In this document: piece by piece, positions 11,678 through 31,633 of the stretch | Position numbering within the stretch: the first letter of the stretch is position 1 | Layout: each line of letters begins with the position of its first letter | Virus record (IMG/VR): IMGVR_UViG_3300032220_001305 | Location: 1 to 31,633 of that record | Source of the DNA: a virus | Length of the DNA stretch: 31,633 nucleotides | Strand: one strand, 5' to 3' | Program-made: the position numbers and the translations under genes | Notes under the pieces: model-generated | Told to the model about the DNA's origin: nothing | The model's database searches: none | What the model saw: only the letters and a program-made list of their open reading frames with translations

Positions 11678-11728
11678 GGTGGCTTCTCCTGTTGCGCCGG
11701 GCGGCTCCATCGCCCCCCCGACACAAGC

Positions 11729-11757
11729 ATCATATGCTCGCACCCCGCGCCCGTCAA
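11729..11757 (-). promoter_or_regulatory. Strong sigma70-type promoter of the recombination unit
   Basis: TTGACG (11757-11752), 17-base spacer, TATGAT (11734-11729). This is the closest match to consensus in the window. It drives the Ala-rich gene, the 134-residue gene, exonuclease and recT. A 45-base leader carries the AACAGGAG cassette. Confidence 0.75.
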
Positions 11758-14796: not shown

Positions 14797-15119
14797 GACT
14801 CCCCCATCACGCGGCGGATGGTGTCGGCGCGCGCCGCTTCGGCCACAAGCGCGGCCATCGTCGCGGCGGCGGGGTCGGCCTCGGACTCTGCCCCGCCCCA
14901 AAGCTGCGGATAATCGGCCCACAACTTCGCGACGGAGGCCAGCTTGGTAGGGTCGGGCGCCGACGATTCAGCCAGCGACCGCGCCGCGTTGGCGACGGCC
15001 TGCCGCAAGAGCGCGCCCACCTCGTCACGGCCGGGGATGCCGGCGGAATCCAGAAGGGCAAGCGCATCCGCAACCTCGGCTTGCGCCTCCCCAATGCGGG
15101 AAGTCGGGCCGTCCTTCAC
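14793..15119 (-). CDS. Helical protein, possible small terminase subunit
   Basis: A 108-residue all-helical protein. It holds QAEVADALALLDSAGI, an Ala-rich helix (LLRQAVANAARSLAES), PTKLASVAKLWADYPQLWGG and an Ala/Met helix. It starts with GTG 15119 in a GTGA overlap. Small terminase subunits are helical, of this length, and lie upstream of terL in the same operon, so this gene and the two HTH genes nearby are the best candidates. No HTH is clear in this one, so the suggestion is weak. Confidence 0.65.
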   Translation of the reverse strand: MKDGPTSRIGEAQAEVADALALLDSAGIPGRDEVGALLRQAVANAARSLAESSAPDPTKLASVAKLWADYPQLWGGAESEADPAAATMAALVAEAARADTIRRVMGES

Positions 15120-15424
15120 GCGGCACCATCCCGGCGGCCGACGGCGGCGGCGATGGCGGACGCGGCGTAGACGGCGGGGCGCTGGCCGGCGGCGCGGGCG
15201 CGGTCCACGATGGCGGCCATCTCGCCCGCGTCAAGGTGCACGTCAACGGACACGCGGACGGCGGGCGGCGCCGGGTTCGCGGCGAGGCCCCGGCGCTCAC
15301 GCCAGATGCGCACGGCTTGGCGAGACACACCCCACCGGGCGGCGAGGTCGCAATCGCGAAGGCCGGCGGCATGGTCCGCGCGGCGGGCGGCGTCTACGGA
15401 ATCGGGAAGGTCGCGAAGGGTCAT
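15116..15424 (-). CDS. HTH + RHH-like DNA-binding protein (paralog 2)
   Basis: A 102-residue protein. A helix-turn-helix lies at about 23-46 (LRDCDLAARWGVSRQAVRIWRERRGL). After a linker ANPAPP, residues 56-95 read as a ribbon-helix-helix-like segment (VRVSVDVHLDAGEMAAIVDRA). It shares the HTH, the exact linker NPAPP and the IVDRA helix with the gene at 15762-16016, so the two are paralogs. Likely a transcriptional regulator or a DNA-recognition subunit such as small terminase. ATG 15424 overlaps the previous stop as ATGA. Confidence 0.75.
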   Translation of the reverse strand: MTLRDLPDSVDAARRADHAAGLRDCDLAARWGVSRQAVRIWRERRGLAANPAPPAVRVSVDVHLDAGEMAAIVDRARAAGQRPAVYAASAIAAAVGRRDGAA

Positions 15425-15765
15425 GGGGTCACCGGGGCGGGAGATGGGCGGCGCATGAGGCGGGCGGCGGCGTCGGCCTGTTTCCTGGCTTCCGCGATTT
15501 CGGCCGCCATTTCCGCCCGGCGGTCTTCGCGGCGCAAGCGGGCGAAGGTGCGTTCGAGGCGGACGGCGCGGGCCACGGCGGCGCCGTAGACGGTCGCCGG
15601 GTCGGCGTCGGCCGGGAGTCGCGCGCGGTCGGCGGCTTCTCGAAGCTCACGCGCAAGCCGGAGATAGGCGGCAGCGGAGGCCGGGTCAACGCCCCCGCGG
15701 CGCGCCGACACTTCGGCGACGCGCGCAAGCTCGGCTGCGGCGTGGGCGCGGGCGGTGTCGCTCAC
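15421..15765 (-). CDS. Helical hypothetical protein (114 aa)
   Basis: Unrecognised all-helical, highly charged protein: ARAHAAAELARVAEVSARRGG, LRLARELREAADRARLP, then a long Arg/Glu-rich helix (LERTFARLRREDRRAEMAAE) that is likely a coiled coil. It begins with GTG 15765 (GTGA overlap) and lies between two HTH/RHH-like paralogs, so it may oligomerise or assist them. No catalytic motif. Confidence 0.65.
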   Translation of the reverse strand: MSDTARAHAAAELARVAEVSARRGGVDPASAAAYLRLARELREAADRARLPADADPATVYGAAVARAVRLERTFARLRREDRRAEMAAEIAEARKQADAAARLMRRPSPAPVTP

Positions 15766-16016
15766 GCGGCGCCCAGAAGAAGCGAGCGCGCCACGGCAGC
15801 GACGGGCCGGCGCTCGATGGCGGCGCGGTCCACGATGGCGGACGCCACGTCCGGCGCAAGCGAGACACGGAGACGGGCGCGCGGCGGTGGCGCGGGGTTC
15901 GCTGGCAGCCCGGCGCGCACACGGGCGGCGCGGGCGCGCGGTAGGGAGAGGCCAAGGGCGGCGCCGATTTCGGCGTCGGAGAGGCCGCGGGCGTGAAGGT
16001 CGTGAAGCGTGGTCAT
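15762..16016 (-). CDS. HTH + RHH-like DNA-binding protein (paralog 1), first gene of the leftward block
   Basis: An 84-residue protein. Residues 1-37 contain an HTH (LSDAEIGAALGLSLPRARAARV), then ANPAPPPRARLRVSL and a ribbon-helix-helix-like part with IVDRAAIERRPVAAVARSLL. It is the first gene of a chain of seven genes joined by 4-base overlaps ending in terL. The ATG at 16016 is 6 bases after a TACGGT box, so its mRNA is likely leaderless. Its place next to the GTAGCA repeats makes it, with its paralog, the best candidate to bind them and control the divergent promoters. That link is inference. Confidence 0.75.
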   Translation of the reverse strand: MTTLHDLHARGLSDAEIGAALGLSLPRARAARVRAGLPANPAPPPRARLRVSLAPDVASAIVDRAAIERRPVAAVARSLLLGAA

Positions 16017-16022
16017 GGCCTT

Positions 16023-16051
16023 ACCGTAGCACCGTGCCCCGGGCGCGTCAA
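16023..16051 (-). promoter_or_regulatory. Leaderless promoter of the leftward block
   Basis: TTGACG (16051-16046), 17-base spacer, TACGGT (16028-16023), then 6 bases to ATG 16016. The -10 box overlaps one GTAGCA repeat (16026-16031), so repeat-binding protein would compete with polymerase. Confidence 0.7.
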
Positions 16052-16504
16052 GCGGGGCGCCTCTGCTACCAGAAACACGTAGCGGCGAGAGGGGCATTAC
16101 CTTGTTGCTACACTCCCGCGGTATCACTTGGGCCGGCCGAAACGCGGCGGACGGTCGGCGTAATCCGGGAGGGTGATGGTTGCAGACACGCTCTGCTACG
16201 CGCTACCGGAAAAGGGTACATATGTAACGGGGAGAAGGAGGGGTGAGGAGGGGCCCGGGGGTCGCGCGCGCGCACAAGGGTATGTGTTTTTGGCGTAGCA
16301 GGTGTAGCAGCGCCGAAAATGACGCTTTGACTACGTGTGTCGTGCTACCGTCCCCCTGGTAGCATGCGCGTAGCAAGTGTAGCAGTAGCATAAAAGGTAT
16401 AGAGAAAGAGAGAGAGAAGGGGGGTGCCGCTGCGCGGCGCCGTGCCGGTCGTTCCTTGGCTTTCGCTATCTCTCGCTTGTCGAGACGCAGTAGCGCCCTG
16501 CTAC
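16026..16504. repeat. Cluster of twelve GTAGCA/TGCTAC repeats (iteron or operator array)
   Basis: GTAGCA occurs on the plus strand at 16026, 16295, 16304, 16359, 16370, 16379 and 16385, and as TGCTAC at 16064, 16106, 16194, 16343 and 16499. Two pairs spaced 9 bases form near-identical 18-mers at 16294 (CGTAGCAGGTGTAGCAG) and 16369 (CGTAGCAAGTGTAGCAG). Chance expectation for a hexamer on either strand in 480 bases is below one. The array fills the gene-free stretch between the divergent blocks. It resembles replication iterons or a multi-site operator. No homolog was recognised. Confidence 0.75.
16391..16438 (+). other. Purine-rich A/G tract and hairpin in the divergent region (possible unwinding element)
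   Basis: Directly after the densest repeats comes a stretch of almost only A and G (16395-16424, GAGAAAGAGAGAGAG core), much richer in A than the surrounding genome, then GCCGC-TGC-GCGGC as a 5-bp hairpin (16426-16438). Low-GC purine tracts beside iterons are typical of replication origins. The rest of 16129-16555 holds a second purine run (16230-16250) and alternating GCGCGCGC (16264-16272), but no supported gene. Confidence 0.4.
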
Positions 16505-16509
16505 ACCGC

Positions 16510-16538
16510 TTGACGCCGCGGGGGCGCCGCGCTACCCT
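16510..16538 (+). promoter_or_regulatory. Sigma70-type promoter of the replication block
   Basis: TTGACG (16510-16515), 17-base spacer, TACCCT (16533-16538). Transcription would begin near 16545, giving a short leader with GGTGAGG before ATG 16556. One TGCTAC repeat (16499-16504) lies just upstream of the -35. Confidence 0.75.
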
Positions 16539-16555: not shown

Positions 16556-17776
16556 ATGGGATGGATTGACGACGTGCGACAGGCGCCCGTAGCGCGCGCG
16601 GTGGCGGGGCTCGGACTGCCCGCCCGGACGGCGCACGGCCGCGCGACGTTCGGCCCGTGCCCGGCCTGCGGCGCAACCCGGCGGGGCGGCTCGGACCCGC
16701 GGCCCCCGGTGGCCGACCTCGGACGCGCGTGGCATTGCCACGCCTGCCAAGCGAAGGGCGGCGCGCTCGAAGTCGCCGCCGCGTCCATCGGCGCCGACCT
16801 CCGGGCCGGGTCCGCGGACTGGCCGCGTTTGCGGGAGACGTGCGCATCCCTTGGCTTGTGCGAATACGCCCACGCCCCGGGAGAGGCCAAGAAGGCCCCC
16901 ACAATCGCCCGCGCTCCCGAGCCGGCCCCTGCACCGCCCGAACGCCTTCCCGCGTCCCAGGTGGCCGCCTTGTGGGACGCCGCGTGGCCCTGCGACTCCG
17001 GCGCCGCCGCCGGATGGTGGGCCGCCCGTTCGGCCCGCGACGGATGGCGCGGCGACCCCGTGGCGCGCGCCGCCCGGGCGCGGTCACTTTCGGTGGCGCG
17101 GGTCTGCCCGCCGGGGCTTTGCGAGGTGGGCGATACTGTCTTCGCCCCGCCCGATTGGGCGCGGGTGGGCCGGGTGACGTGGGGCGAGGGATGGCCGCTG
17201 CTTCTGCCCGTCTACGACGCGCGCGGGGAGCTTGTGGCGCTCCGGGCGCGGCGGTGCGCGTGGACCCCGGACGGCGAGCCGAGGGGGCCGCATCGCTGGA
17301 CCGGCGATTCTTGGCTTCCCTACGCCGGCCCGGACGCGAAAGAGGTTTCGCCCATCGGCGGCGGATGCCGGGGCGCAGTCTACGCCGACCCCGCGGCCGT
17401 CTCCGTCCTGCGCGGCGGGGGCGCCTTCCGCCCCGGTGACCCCGTGCTTTGCGGCCGGGATTGGTCCCCGGGCTCCGTCGTTTGGTCCGGCCGCGCCGTC
17501 ATTGTCGAGGGCGGGCCCGATTTCCTTCGGGCATCCACCGCCGACGGCCGCCTGCGGCTCGCCAAGTCGGGCGAATTCTACGAGGTGGACGCGGTTTTCG
17601 GCGTGTTCTCCGGCGCATGGCCCGCCGACGGCCCCGGATTTGACATCGCGGCAACCCTTCGCCACGCTACGCTTGTCCAGATTTCGACGGACGGCGACGG
17701 GCCCGGCGACAAGTACGCCGCCGCCATCGCCGCGACGCTGGACCGCTTCACCATCCCGAACAGGAGAAAGCCATGA
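16556..17776 (+). CDS. DNA primase (zinc ribbon + TOPRIM)
   Basis: A 406-residue primase. The N-terminal zinc ribbon has CPAC at 35-38 and CHAC at 61-64 (RAWHCHACQAKGGALE), the DnaG/CHC2 type. A proline-rich linker follows (about 110-130). The C-terminal TOPRIM shows VIVEGGPDF with Glu318 and Asp322, and ISTDGDGPGDKY with Asp379/Asp381, the metal-binding set. It would make RNA primers on phage DNA. It is the first gene of the rightward block and is joined to the DUF927 ATPase by an ATGA overlap, so the pair probably works as primase and helicase/loader. There is no helicase domain in this protein itself. An AACAGGAG cassette at its 3' end serves the next gene. Confidence 0.85.
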   Translation: MGWIDDVRQAPVARAVAGLGLPARTAHGRATFGPCPACGATRRGGSDPRPPVADLGRAWHCHACQAKGGALEVAAASIGADLRAGSADWPRLRETCASLGLCEYAHAPGEAKKAPTIARAPEPAPAPPERLPASQVAALWDAAWPCDSGAAAGWWAARSARDGWRGDPVARAARARSLSVARVCPPGLCEVGDTVFAPPDWARVGRVTWGEGWPLLLPVYDARGELVALRARRCAWTPDGEPRGPHRWTGDSWLPYAGPDAKEVSPIGGGCRGAVYADPAAVSVLRGGGAFRPGDPVLCGRDWSPGSVVWSGRAVIVEGGPDFLRASTADGRLRLAKSGEFYEVDAVFGVFSGAWPADGPGFDIAATLRHATLVQISTDGDGPGDKYAAAIAATLDRFTIPNRRKP

Positions 17777-19560
17777 GCAGCAGCATTGACGACTTCTTCG
17801 TGGAAGACGAGCCCGCGCCCGTCACCCGGCCCCGGCTTGTGCCCGCGGGCGAAACCCCGCCGACCTTCGCCCCGCCCGGCCACGTCGCGCCGCCGCCCGG
17901 CGGATGGGCGGTTGATGAGTCGGGCGTCTGGAAAGAGACGAGAGACGAGAACGGAAGCCGCTTCGTCATGGTCTGCCCGCGCGCGGTCCACGTCCAGCGG
18001 CGCATCGTGGACATTGACGACGGCGCCGCAATGCTGGAGGTCGCTTGGCACGACGGCCGCGGGTGGCGCAGCATCACGCGCCCCCGGTCGGCGTTCCTTG
18101 ATTCGCGAAAGCTGGTTGCGCTGGCCGATGACGGATTGCCCGTCTCGTCAGTCAACGCGCGCGGCGTGGTCGAATACATCGGGGCCTATGCCGAGTCTGA
18201 CGAGGTGCCCCTCGGACGGGTCGCGCGCCGCTGCGGCTGGACCGGCCCCGACTTCGCGGGCTTCATCTTCGGCGCGGAGTGCATCGGGGAAGCCGGGGGC
18301 GAAGCGGTCGAGCTTTACGCCCCCGACCTCCCCGCGCCCGTCCACGCGGTCGGGAGCGCCGGCACCCCGGACGGGTGGCGGCAGCTTGGGCCGGTGCTGG
18401 CCGACCTTCCGATTGTCTGGCTTGCCATCCTGGCCTCTGCCGCGTCCCCCCTTGTCTCCGTCTATTCGCAGGTCGGATGGATTCTCGACATCTGCGGCTA
18501 CACTTCACGCGGAAAGACGACGGCGCTAAACGTCGCGGCGTCGGTTTGGGGCCGCCCCGGTGAACAGGGCTACATCATGCCTTGGACGGGGACGGCCACG
18601 TACAAGGAGCGCGCCGCCGCCGCCCTGAAACACTTGCCCGTCATGCTTGACGACTCGAAGAAGGTGCCGGAGCGGGAGCGGGAAGCAACCATCGGAAGCA
18701 CGCTTTACGTTCATGCATCGGGCATCGGCAAAGGCCGGGGGACCGTGACCGGCGTCCAACGCTCGGCTTCGTGGTGTTCGTGGATGCTTTCGACGGGGGA
18801 GGCCGAAATCACCAGCTACGCGCCGAAAGACGACGGCGCCCGCGCGCGTACCATCGTAGTCCGGGGCGAGCCCTTGGGGGCCGACGGTGCCGCCCGTGCT
18901 GCCGCCATCGCGCGCATCATCGGGCCGGAGTGCCGCGCGCCCCACTACGGCCACGCCGGGCCGGCGGTCATCCGGTGGGCGCTCGCCCGCGGGGCGGACG
19001 CCGTGCGCGCGCGGTGGGCCGACCTCCGGGACCACTACGCGGGGCAGCTTGCCGCCGACGCGGGGGCCGTCGCCGGGCGCCTTGGCGCGGCCGTGGCATC
19101 GCTTCGGTTGGCTGCGGAGGCCATGACGGACGCCGGCTTCCCCGTGCCGCTCGCCGATGGCGGCGAATACGCGGCGGTCCTTGTCGCGCTCGAAGGGGCG
19201 CGCCGGTCGGGGCAGGATGCGGACAAGCCGCGCGCCACCTTGGCGGCGGTCTGGACCCGCGCCGTGGCCGCGCGGCACCGCTTCTGGCATTCGGCCGCCG
19301 CGGACCCGCCGCCGGACGGGTGGGCCGGCGCGTGGGATGCCTCGGAAGCGTGGGCGCAGGTGGCCGTGCGTCCCGATGTTCTTGACCGCTGGCTCACGGA
19401 GGCCGCCGCCGACCGTGGCGCCGTCATCGGCGAATGGCTCGCCCGCGGTTGGCTTCTGCCTGACGGCCAAGGCCGGGCAACGCGGAACGTGCGCATCGCG
19501 GGATTGCAGGCTCGGTGCTACGTTTTCCCGCGGGCCGTGCTCGAAGACGTGGCTGGTTAG
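17773..19560 (+). CDS. DUF927-type ATPase (helicase-like replication protein)
   Basis: A 595-residue protein. The core is a DUF927-type ATPase: the N-terminal 40 residues are Pro-rich, 130-175 include YIGAYAESDEVPLGRVARRCGW, and ICGYTSRGKTTALNVAASVWG carries Walker A (242-250); VMLDDSKK (290-297) is the Walker B. Further motifs are LYVHASGIGKGRG and WMLSTGEAEI. DUF927 proteins are found in phages and mobile elements with primases and are thought to be replicative helicases or loaders; the helicase activity is inferred. AACAGGAG lies 6 bases before ATG 17773. The region after about 430 is helical and less typical. Confidence 0.82.
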   Translation: MSSSIDDFFVEDEPAPVTRPRLVPAGETPPTFAPPGHVAPPPGGWAVDESGVWKETRDENGSRFVMVCPRAVHVQRRIVDIDDGAAMLEVAWHDGRGWRSITRPRSAFLDSRKLVALADDGLPVSSVNARGVVEYIGAYAESDEVPLGRVARRCGWTGPDFAGFIFGAECIGEAGGEAVELYAPDLPAPVHAVGSAGTPDGWRQLGPVLADLPIVWLAILASAASPLVSVYSQVGWILDICGYTSRGKTTALNVAASVWGRPGEQGYIMPWTGTATYKERAAAALKHLPVMLDDSKKVPEREREATIGSTLYVHASGIGKGRGTVTGVQRSASWCSWMLSTGEAEITSYAPKDDGARARTIVVRGEPLGADGAARAAAIARIIGPECRAPHYGHAGPAVIRWALARGADAVRARWADLRDHYAGQLAADAGAVAGRLGAAVASLRLAAEAMTDAGFPVPLADGGEYAAVLVALEGARRSGQDADKPRATLAAVWTRAVAARHRFWHSAAADPPPDGWAGAWDASEAWAQVAVRPDVLDRWLTEAAADRGAVIGEWLARGWLLPDGQGRATRNVRIAGLQARCYVFPRAVLEDVAG

Positions 19561-19582
19561 TTGTCAGGAGATTGTTAACCGC

Positions 19583-19611
19583 TTGACGCTGGACGGGGGC
19601 CGCCATACTGT
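19583..19611 (+). promoter_or_regulatory. Sigma70-type promoter for the early accessory genes
   Basis: TTGACG (19583-19588), 17-base spacer, TACTGT (19606-19611), 22 bases after the ATPase stop. The upstream CCGCTTGACGC is the same extended -35 as at 16510. The leader includes AACAGGAG at 19646-19653 before ATG 19663. Confidence 0.75.
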
Positions 19612-19662
19612 GCTTGTGTCGGCGGGCGGTGCAGCCCGCGACGCAAACAGGAGCAAGCCAGT

Positions 19663-19890
19663 ATGGAACTCACCCGTTCGACCTACCTTCTTTCCTGCTA
19701 CGTCTCCACGTACTCCCGCGGCGGCAAGCTCACCGACTACGACGCGGCCAAGGTGGCTTGCGCTGCCGGTGCCAGCATCGCCGACGTTTACACCGCCGCC
19801 GCCGCCCTCGGCGTCTCCATCGTGTCGGCCTGCGAGGATCACGACACCGACGCCCCCGGCATCGGCGACTGCGAAGGGCGCGACGCATGA
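19663..19890 (+). CDS. Hypothetical early protein (75 aa)
   Basis: Unrecognised. It has an N-terminal Ser/Tyr-rich part (LTRSTYLLSCYVSTYSRGG), a KLTDYDAAKVACAAGASIADVYTAAAALGV helix pair and a short acidic end. The central region reads like a small helix-turn-helix (GASIADVYTAAAALG), but it is weak. First gene after a strong promoter, with an AACAGGAG cassette 9 bases before ATG 19663, so it is probably well expressed early and may act on the host. No homolog recognised. Confidence 0.7.
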   Translation: MELTRSTYLLSCYVSTYSRGGKLTDYDAAKVACAAGASIADVYTAAAALGVSIVSACEDHDTDAPGIGDCEGRDA

Positions 19891-20057
19891 CGCCGCTTCC
19901 CTACCCGCCCGCGCCCACGATGGCCCGCGCCGCCCTCGGCATCCTGGCCTTCGCCGCCGCCATCGGCGCCACCATCGCGCCCGCCCCGTACCACGTTGCC
20001 TGGATTCCGCTCGCCATCATCGGCGCGTGGGGCCTTGGCGCCTTCCTTCCGGAGTAA
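19887..20057 (+). CDS. Small protein with two membrane helices (56 aa)
   Basis: A 56-residue membrane protein. After a Pro-rich N-terminus (MTPLPYPPAPTM), residues 13-30 (RAALGILAFAAAIGATIA) and 36-54 (HVAWIPLAIIGAWGLGAFL) are two membrane-spanning helices joined by a short loop, giving a hairpin. ATGA overlap with the preceding gene. Such early two-helix proteins could change the host membrane, for example in superinfection exclusion, or be a second holin; nothing in the sequence settles this. It lies in the early block, far from the lysis genes. Confidence 0.7.
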   Translation: MTPLPYPPAPTMARAALGILAFAAAIGATIAPAPYHVAWIPLAIIGAWGLGAFLPE

Positions 20058-20063
20058 GCTGTC

Positions 20064-20690
20064 ATGCGCTACCATCCCGACTACTCCCCCGAACTCGAAG
20101 ACGGGCCCGCCCGCCCGCGCTTCTGCCGCCACCCCACCGAGTATGGCCCCTGCGGCGCGTGCCAGGATTGCGCGCCGGAGGATGCGGAAACCGAAGAGGC
20201 TCCGCGCCTCACCGCCACGCGCGCGGAGCTTCGTGCCGCGCTTGGATTCTTCCCGGCCGACCGGGACGCGCTCCCGGCCGGCGCCGCCGAAGACGAACTC
20301 GACGTTGCCGCCCTCTGGCCTTCGCTGTCAATCGAAGGCGCCATCCGTACCCTTGGCGCGGCGCACCCGCCGGAGCGCGCCTTGGCCGTCGCCGTCGCCA
20401 CCGCGGAGGCCATCATGGCCCGCTATGTCCCGCCGGATGAAGACGAAGAGCGGCCGGAGTTTCCGAGGCCCCCCGCCGAAACCTTCGCCGACGCCTGCGC
20501 GGCGCGTGATTGGTGGATGACCGTCGCGGCCCGGGGTGCGCGCCCGTCAGACGCCTACATGGCCTCCCAGCGCCACCACGTCGCCGGCTTGGCCTCCGCC
20601 CTCGCCGCCGCCGTCCTTGGCGCCGACCCGGCCGAAGAGCGCCGCCGCCAGCGTGCCGACCTCCTGGCTGCCTTGGAGATGACGCCGTGA
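20064..20690 (+). CDS. Hypothetical protein with N-terminal Cys/His cluster (208 aa)
   Basis: A 208-residue protein. The cluster RFCRHPTEYGPCGACQDC (about 19-36) has four Cys and one His and should bind zinc. Then come acidic, Ala-rich helices (TATRAELRAALGFF, LPAGAAEDELDVAALW) and a C-terminal helical part with ARDWWMTVAARGARPSDAY and ADPAEERRRQRADLLAALEM. No enzyme motif is recognised. GGAG lies upstream of ATG 20064, and its stop overlaps the next start as GTGA. A zinc-dependent DNA- or protein-binding role is likely. Confidence 0.7.
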   Translation: MRYHPDYSPELEDGPARPRFCRHPTEYGPCGACQDCAPEDAETEEAPRLTATRAELRAALGFFPADRDALPAGAAEDELDVAALWPSLSIEGAIRTLGAAHPPERALAVAVATAEAIMARYVPPDEDEERPEFPRPPAETFADACAARDWWMTVAARGARPSDAYMASQRHHVAGLASALAAAVLGADPAEERRRQRADLLAALEMTP

Positions 20691-21019
20691 CGTGGGCCGC
20701 CTGGACCGCCGCAGAGCTTCGCCGTGGGCTCGAAATCGCCGCCGACACCGCCCTTTCGTGGCGCAAGGTCGGCGCGGTCATGGCCTCCGAAGGCTACGCC
20801 CTGCGCGGGCCGCAAGCCGTCCGCAAAACGCTTGTGCGCGCCGGGGCGCCGGTTCGTGCTGATGTGCGCCGGAAGCGGGCGCCGGAGGATGCGCCGTCCA
20901 AGCGCGGCGCGAAGGCCCCCGGCCTTGTGGCCTTCACCGTCTCCCGGCCTTCGCGCGTGATTGTCGAGCTTATCGCGGGCGGAATCCGGGTCGATATCCG
21001 GCCCATCCGCGGCGAATAA
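20687..21019 (+). CDS. HTH-like protein A (110 aa), paralog of 22162-22554
   Basis: A 110-residue protein whose first 50 residues match the N-terminus of the gene at 22162: LRRGLEIAADTALSWRKVGAVM versus YRVGLEIAADPRLSWAEVAAEM, followed by AVRKTLVRAGAPVRA versus AVSNTLRPAGAPLRA. This is an HTH-like segment. The second half differs: it is basic and ends with a beta-rich stretch (VELIAGGIRVDIRPIRG). Starts with GTG 20687 (GTGA overlap). Probably a DNA-binding regulator or an architectural protein. The duplicated domain with different tails points to distinct roles for the two copies. Confidence 0.7.
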   Translation: MTWAAWTAAELRRGLEIAADTALSWRKVGAVMASEGYALRGPQAVRKTLVRAGAPVRADVRRKRAPEDAPSKRGAKAPGLVAFTVSRPSRVIVELIAGGIRVDIRPIRGE

Positions 21020-22161: not shown

Positions 22162-22554
22162 ATGAACTACGCTCGCAAACATTGGGATTCTACCGATTAC
22201 CGCGTCGGCCTCGAAATCGCCGCGGACCCGCGCCTTTCGTGGGCCGAAGTCGCCGCCGAAATGACCGCCCGCGGGCGCCCGCCCCGTTCGGCTCATGCTG
22301 TGTCGAATACCCTGCGTCCGGCCGGCGCCCCGCTGCGCGCCGTGGCGAACGTCTTGCGCAAGGCTGGCACCCCGCCGCGCGCCACGGCCACCACCGAAGC
22401 GGAGCCCGCGCCGCTCTTCCCGACCCCGGCTTCCGCCCCGGCGGCCCTCCCCGACGCCGTGTCTGCCTTCGTCGCGCACGTCCGCGCCACCGCCCGCGCG
22501 GAGGTGTTCGCCGCCATCCGCGCCGCGCTGGCCGAAATCGAGGCCGCGTCGTGA
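22162..22554 (+). CDS. HTH-like protein B (130 aa), paralog of 20687-21019
   Basis: A 130-residue protein with the same N-terminal domain as the gene at 20687 (see motif there), then a partial repeat of the linker (AVANVLRKAGTPPRA), a Pro/Ala-rich region of about 25 residues and a C-terminal Ala-rich helix (FVAHVRATARAEVFAAIRAALAEIEA) likely to oligomerise. An AACAGGAG cassette at 22147-22154 lies 7 bases before ATG 22162. DNA-binding regulator is the most likely role. It could be an iteron- or operator-binding protein; there is no proof. Confidence 0.72.
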   Translation: MNYARKHWDSTDYRVGLEIAADPRLSWAEVAAEMTARGRPPRSAHAVSNTLRPAGAPLRAVANVLRKAGTPPRATATTEAEPAPLFPTPASAPAALPDAVSAFVAHVRATARAEVFAAIRAALAEIEAAS

Positions 22555-31554: not shown

Positions 31555-31584
31555 AGTCTACCCCGGAATGCGCAGTCCTGGCAA
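31555..31584 (-). promoter_or_regulatory. Leaderless promoter before the 31-codon ORF
   Basis: TTGCCA (31584-31579), 18-base spacer, TAGACT (31560-31555), then 6 bases to ATG 31548. The TAG of the -10 box is also the stop codon of the gp10-like gene. Part of the -35 lies in the terminal repeat. Confidence 0.55.
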
Positions 31585-31633
31585 GCCGTCCGCGATTTCC
31601 CCGTCAATGCGGCGCACTTCGGCATCGTGCGCG
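31558..31633 (-). CDS. C-terminal end of the gp10-like gene (repeat copy)
   Basis: The same gene as at 1-578, seen again because the terminal 72 bases are repeated. Stop TAG at 31558-31560. It is not a second gene. Confidence 0.85.
   Translation of the reverse strand, partial: AHDAEVRRIDGEIADGLPGLRIPG
31562..31633. repeat. Right copy of 72-bp terminal direct repeat
   Basis: Exact copy of bases 1-72; see that entry. Removing one copy gives a 31,561-base circle. Confidence 0.95.

Follow-up and report, generated by a model that had tools for sequence, protein, structure and literature searches.

A GTAGC iteron array upstream of a primase-helicase operon as the probable replication origin of a GC-rich tailed phage

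What is the function of the gene-free stretch between the leftward gene start at 16016 and the rightward gene start at 16556 of IMG/VR virus record IMGVR_UViG_3300032220_001305, in which one short word recurs in both orientations? The window, i.e. the whole analysed stretch of 31,633 bp with a GC content of 70%, carries an identical 72-bp direct repeat at 1-72 and 31562-31633, and this terminal repeat makes it probable that the record represents a complete, circularised genome. A preliminary description had reported twelve hexamers (GTAGCA/TGCTAC, seven direct and five inverted) at 16026-16504, and proposed a new iteron or operator array. According to our analyses the array is very probably the replication origin of the phage, used by its DUF927 Rep-like helicase and working like the rep-ori of SaPI/PICI elements (Table 1).

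The twelve hexamers (7 on the plus, 5 on the minus strand) are confirmed by exact count, against seven copies in the remaining 31 kb. The whole window thus holds 19 copies, while shuffled sequences contain 3.35 on average and 10 at maximum. When every 5-7-mer is scored in 450-bp windows over the whole genome, GTAGCA (n = 11, -log10 P 21.6) forms the top short-repeat cluster, with the best unrelated k-mer reaching about 8, and the same scan detects no second short-repeat array in the window. The clustering described earlier therefore stands, but not the hexamer as its unit: the sixth base after GTAGC is variable (A or G; one GTAGCA is replaced by GTAGCG in the relative L006), and the conserved core is the pentamer GTAGC, present in 16 copies at 16026-16535 versus about 39 across the rest of the genome. 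Outside the array the density of GTAGCA is about 25-fold lower. Same-strand spacings in the array are 9, 11, 9, 7 and 6 bp, and the two pairs spaced 9 bp (16295/16304 and 16370/16379) yield the near-identical 18-mers that had been noted before (94% identity). Neither a similarity search against known-phage DNA nor an Rfam search returns a match for the array region.

Table 1. Features of the proposed origin and its surroundings (positions of the window; iteron strands in brackets)
Feature	Position	Strand	Basis or remark
Paralog of the small HTH/RHH protein	15116..15424	-	48% identity
Small HTH protein, first leftward gene, C-terminal half RHH-like by eye; rival binder	15762..16016	-	
Array of 16 GTAGC/GCTAC pentamers in two orientations, flanked by divergent promoters; proposed replication origin	16026..16535	.	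counts, conservation, comparison
Leftward promoter TTGACG-N17-TACGGT; outermost left pentamer overlaps -10	16026..16054	-	inspection
Left iteron group 16065(-), 16079(+), 16107(-)	16065..16111	.	invariant in five relatives
Iteron pair 16195(-), 16202(-)	16195..16206	-	pentamer count, relatives' alignment
18-mer with iterons 16295 and 16304, 9 bp apart	16293..16310	+	18-mer comparison, relatives
Densest iteron cluster 16344(-), 16359(+), 16370(+), 16379(+), 16385(+)	16344..16389	.	same-strand spacings 11, 9, 6
Candidate DNA unwinding element (ATAAAAGGTATAGAGAAAGAGAGAGAGAA)	16371..16420	.	most AT-rich 40-mers genome-wide
Iterons 16490(+), 16500(-), beyond the AT-rich stretch	16490..16504	.	pentamer count, relatives
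Rightward promoter TTGACG-N17-TACCCT; outermost right GCTAC within -10 (16531)	16510..16538	+	inspection
Primase-like gene, first in rightward operon	16556..17776	+	zinc-finger-like CxxC...HCxAC motif by eye
Rep-like initiator helicase (DUF927) whose C-terminal domain is winged-helix-like; proposed iteron binder	17773..19560	+	profile, sequence, fold

The repeats are kept in related phages, the array being present in all five close relatives that cover the region (contigs L002-L006); the contig of a further relative, G006 (L012/L033), ends short of it. In the alignment of the window with these five contigs, all 80 pentamer columns are invariant, whereas 47 of the 432 other columns of the same stretch vary (hypergeometric P 2e-4). 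Random sets of 16 five-column blocks lack variable columns in 0.13% of trials, and when the motif positions are rotated, variable columns are absent in 4 of 510 cases. The compared sequences are close, and the strength of this conservation as evidence is therefore moderate, not overwhelming. Four of these relatives, L002-L005, carry an inserted gene for a C5 cytosine methylase (PF00145 in L002, at L002:953-1879) between the primase gene and the array, which is itself intact. Promoters with GCGCTACCCT lie on either side of this gene, and the -10 region with GCGCTACCCT occurs twice in the methylase-bearing relatives.

The 40-mers with the highest AT content in the whole genome touch the densest iteron cluster, and the stretch that contains them (16371-16420) is flanked unevenly, by this cluster on one side and by only two iterons beyond it. 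For PICI origins, an AT-rich region between two iteron sets has been described (PMC6092414). GC skew is uninformative for origin mapping in the window because gene orientation confounds it.

The candidate binder of the iterons is encoded by the second gene of the rightward operon, whose start lies 1.2 kb beyond the end of the array. This protein matches PF06048 (E 4e-37) and a PHROG primase/helicase family (E 3e-78), and its residues 65-591 match the SaPI Rep 8tch by sequence (E 8e-23), with SCCmec Cch matched as well. Foldseek searches with its AlphaFold2 model (mean pLDDT 80) return as best matches the 'initiation of replication protein' of SaPIbov1 (8tch, E 5e-26) and Cch (5dgk, E 3e-22). 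The modelled C-terminus displays a strand-helix-helix-hairpin order, which is typical of winged helices; in addition, the DNA-binding relaxosome protein of pCW3 is matched over stretches of about 110 alignment columns, a match that would fall on the helicase C-terminus. SaPI Rep recognises its iteron origin via the C-terminal domain, and the C-terminal domain of Cch2 binds 5-nt iterons (PMC7581432). The primase-like gene preceding the helicase has no match to a library family. Among genome contigs, a search with the helicase sequence alone finds no match, and a search with the helicase alignment finds one contig, from a Sphingomonadaceae MAG (L119); together with the promoter style this gives a weak hint of an alphaproteobacterial host.

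An association between such helicases and short-repeat arrays extends across the family. Scanning IMG/VR with the helicase alignment yields 79 loci, and 58 of the 74 distinct loci tested possess a strong array (score against a first-order Markov background with a threshold of 10, which was set after a first look; shuffled loci mostly score 4-7). Control segments farther off on the same contigs exceed the threshold in 4 of 98 cases. The array starts within 100 bp past the helicase stop in 45 of the 58 array-bearing loci, and the commonest same-strand spacing across the family arrays is 9 bp (105 of 320), a value also seen in the window. Named elements display the same pattern 3' of the helicase gene: THSA-485A (GGTAACCGA iterons 9, 11 and 9 bp apart), FP_Epona (TAGGTGAAAC iterons spaced 9 and 12 bp), phiRg507T2_3 (an array of GTAACAAAA iterons) and PT1028, SaPI-like by gene content (AGTTCCC at 9 and 11 bp plus inverted copies).

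The window deviates from most loci in that its array precedes the primase-helicase operon instead of following the helicase; the usual origin site 3' of the helicase (19561-20060) was searched and contains no array. L045 and L046 (about 37% identity), the closest helicase relatives in which an array is clear, likewise possess their 14 and 12 GTAAC copies, mostly TTGTAAC, upstream of the primase. In the helicase tree, which was flagged for long branches and unusual composition, the window and seven neighbours (L045-L049, L051 and L119) form one clade with a support of 100, and a single relocation would therefore explain the upstream arrangement in this clade. Its members L047, L049 and L051 have weak arrays only. 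Local DNA alignments of the window array with L045, L046, L048, L049 and L119 score at or near the shuffled level, for which reason homology is not claimed for the origin sequences; the origins of the window and L045 would be homologous by position and architecture only. GGTCG and GTAAC repeats are interleaved in the origin regions L048:916-1586 and L119:591-1100, the mixed array of L119 scoring just under the threshold; the two families perhaps serve different proteins or represent a transition from one iteron to another. Outside the window's clade, dense arrays upstream of a DUF927 helicase occur at L108:1853-2291 (ACTCAAC, 19 copies) and L109:1568-1754 (CTATGGC, 12 copies).

The location between divergent promoters could also point to operators, with one of the small HTH/RHH proteins (15762-16016 or 15116-15424) repressing both promoters via GTAGC and the array having no role in replication. 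Such a protein is encoded by the first leftward gene, pentamers lie on both -10 boxes, and another precedes the rightward -35. As stated earlier, one hexamer overlaps the leftward -10 (16026) and one is positioned just before the rightward -35 (copy at 16499, -35 at 16510). However, L045-L050 possess TTGACN-N15/16-GCTA before their primase although their iterons are GTAAC or GGTCG. Since GCTAC recurs at promoters beside other iterons, the -10 overlap seems to reflect how promoters are built in this phage group and is no proof of operators, and the GCTAC within the rightward -10 probably serves as a promoter element, not as an iteron. Moreover, the majority of copies are located away from any promoter with a -35, and arrays of this build accompany the DUF927 helicase in different phages, with no requirement for such a regulator. 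Searches with the HTH/RHH paralogs match only in the same close relatives, and no homolog is detected within about 3.5 kb of the L045/L046 arrays, although for a protein of 84 aa this is a weak test. Mycobacteriophage stoperators and RHH heptad arrays likewise consist of numerous short, asymmetric sites in two orientations; they differ in being genome-wide or promoter-centred and in following the gene for a repressor, not for a helicase. A purely regulatory array is thus improbable. The paralogs at 15116-16016 and the HTH-like pair at 20687 and 22162, both put forward as binders in the preliminary description, are less likely to bind the repeats than the DUF927 helicase, because such arrays accompany the helicase family without detected HTH/RHH homologs nearby. 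From 'iteron or operator', the iteron part is upheld by the family arrays and the conservation, whereas the operator part is weakened by the promoter consensus.

The frequency of TTGACN-N15/16-GCTA at the promoters of this phage raises a further explanation, namely that the GCTAC copies are -10-like motifs for a host sigma factor without a dedicated binder. By inspection, though, TTGAC stands at the right distance for just 2 of the 16 pentamers. Several same-strand copies at 9-11 bp within 95 bp make no sense as promoters, and the relatives' arrays use unrelated words, which leaves this explanation very remote. A general sigma70 scan misses both divergent promoters because their -10 is GC-rich.

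Further small DNA-binding candidates and promoters were observed elsewhere in the window. The two related HTH-like proteins (20687-20959 and 22162-22554) have no Pfam or PHROG match and are 45-50% identical to each other's copies in L033. Promoters at 11690-11757 (-) and 19583-19650 (+) have a common CGCTTGACG -35 and a leader starting with GCTTGTGTCGG just after the -10, followed by a GC-rich hairpin-like sequence, a short spacer and the start codon. The second site is kept in L006, and the pair possibly represents a common leader element.

With the DUF927 pri-rep-ori of SaPI/PICI (SaPIbov1 Rep 8tch; PT1028) the window shares a homologous Rep with a C-terminal DNA-binding domain, a primase neighbour, short iterons in two orientations with same-strand spacings of 9 and 11 bp, and an AT-rich neighbour. 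Unlike PICI origins, which are located immediately 3' of rep, its array is placed between two divergent promoters, 5' of the operon for primase and helicase; the iteron word is GTAGC, the genome is that of a tailed phage with 70% GC and, in contrast to PICI satellites without structural or packaging genes, it encodes its own terminase, portal, head and tail proteins. The SCCmec protein Cch shares the DUF927 fold with the window's helicase. The C-terminal domain of Cch2 recognises 5-nt iterons (AAGTG; PMC7581432), but Cch2 represents a different helicase family, with a putative origin that comprises only three iterons and lies downstream of its gene. THSA-485A, FP_Epona and phiRg507T2_3 resemble the window in having iterons 9-12 bp apart beside a homologous helicase and differ in the array following the helicase, in low to mid GC and in other iteron words. 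The array, as judged from these sequence comparisons, is best regarded as a relocated SaPI/PICI-style Rep origin and not as the wholly new kind of element suggested before; since the position 3' of rep was tested and holds no array, it is a relocated variant and not a strict member of the PICI origins.

In the mechanism we propose for this origin, an oligomer of the DUF927 helicase would bind the GTAGC iterons via its C-terminal winged-helix domain and melt the DNA, presumably beginning at the AT-rich stretch. Rep would then self-load as a hexameric helicase, independently of any host loader, and recruit the primase encoded just upstream of it, so that copying of the genome would start at the array. 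Because the origin is situated between divergent promoters, Rep binding may also feed back on the early and the leftward transcription.

Autoregulation by iteron-binding initiators is common among iteron plasmids, and the iterons could here double as operators through which Rep represses or switches the divergent promoters, an addition to the origin function and no exclusive alternative to it. Iterons and promoters are interleaved across 510 bp, and the iterons at 16065 and 16500 are close to the two -35 boxes. In most relatives, by contrast, the arrays are located 3' of the helicase, away from the helicase promoter, and regulation is therefore probably not the ancestral role. Such dual use is a tentative proposal, and an HTH protein may likewise act on these promoters from the array. 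It is similarly conceivable, if somewhat speculative, that the move of the iterons between divergent operons made the origin a switch, by which Rep couples replication to early and leftward transcription.

Dozens of viral contigs have similar arrays beside homologous helicases, as do several named tailed phages, and the iteron word differs in many of them. These arrays constitute a large natural set for learning how the C-terminal domain of Rep reads its iteron. Their comparison suggests where satellites and phages swap replicons, and indicates that one clade shifted its origin to a regulatory position.
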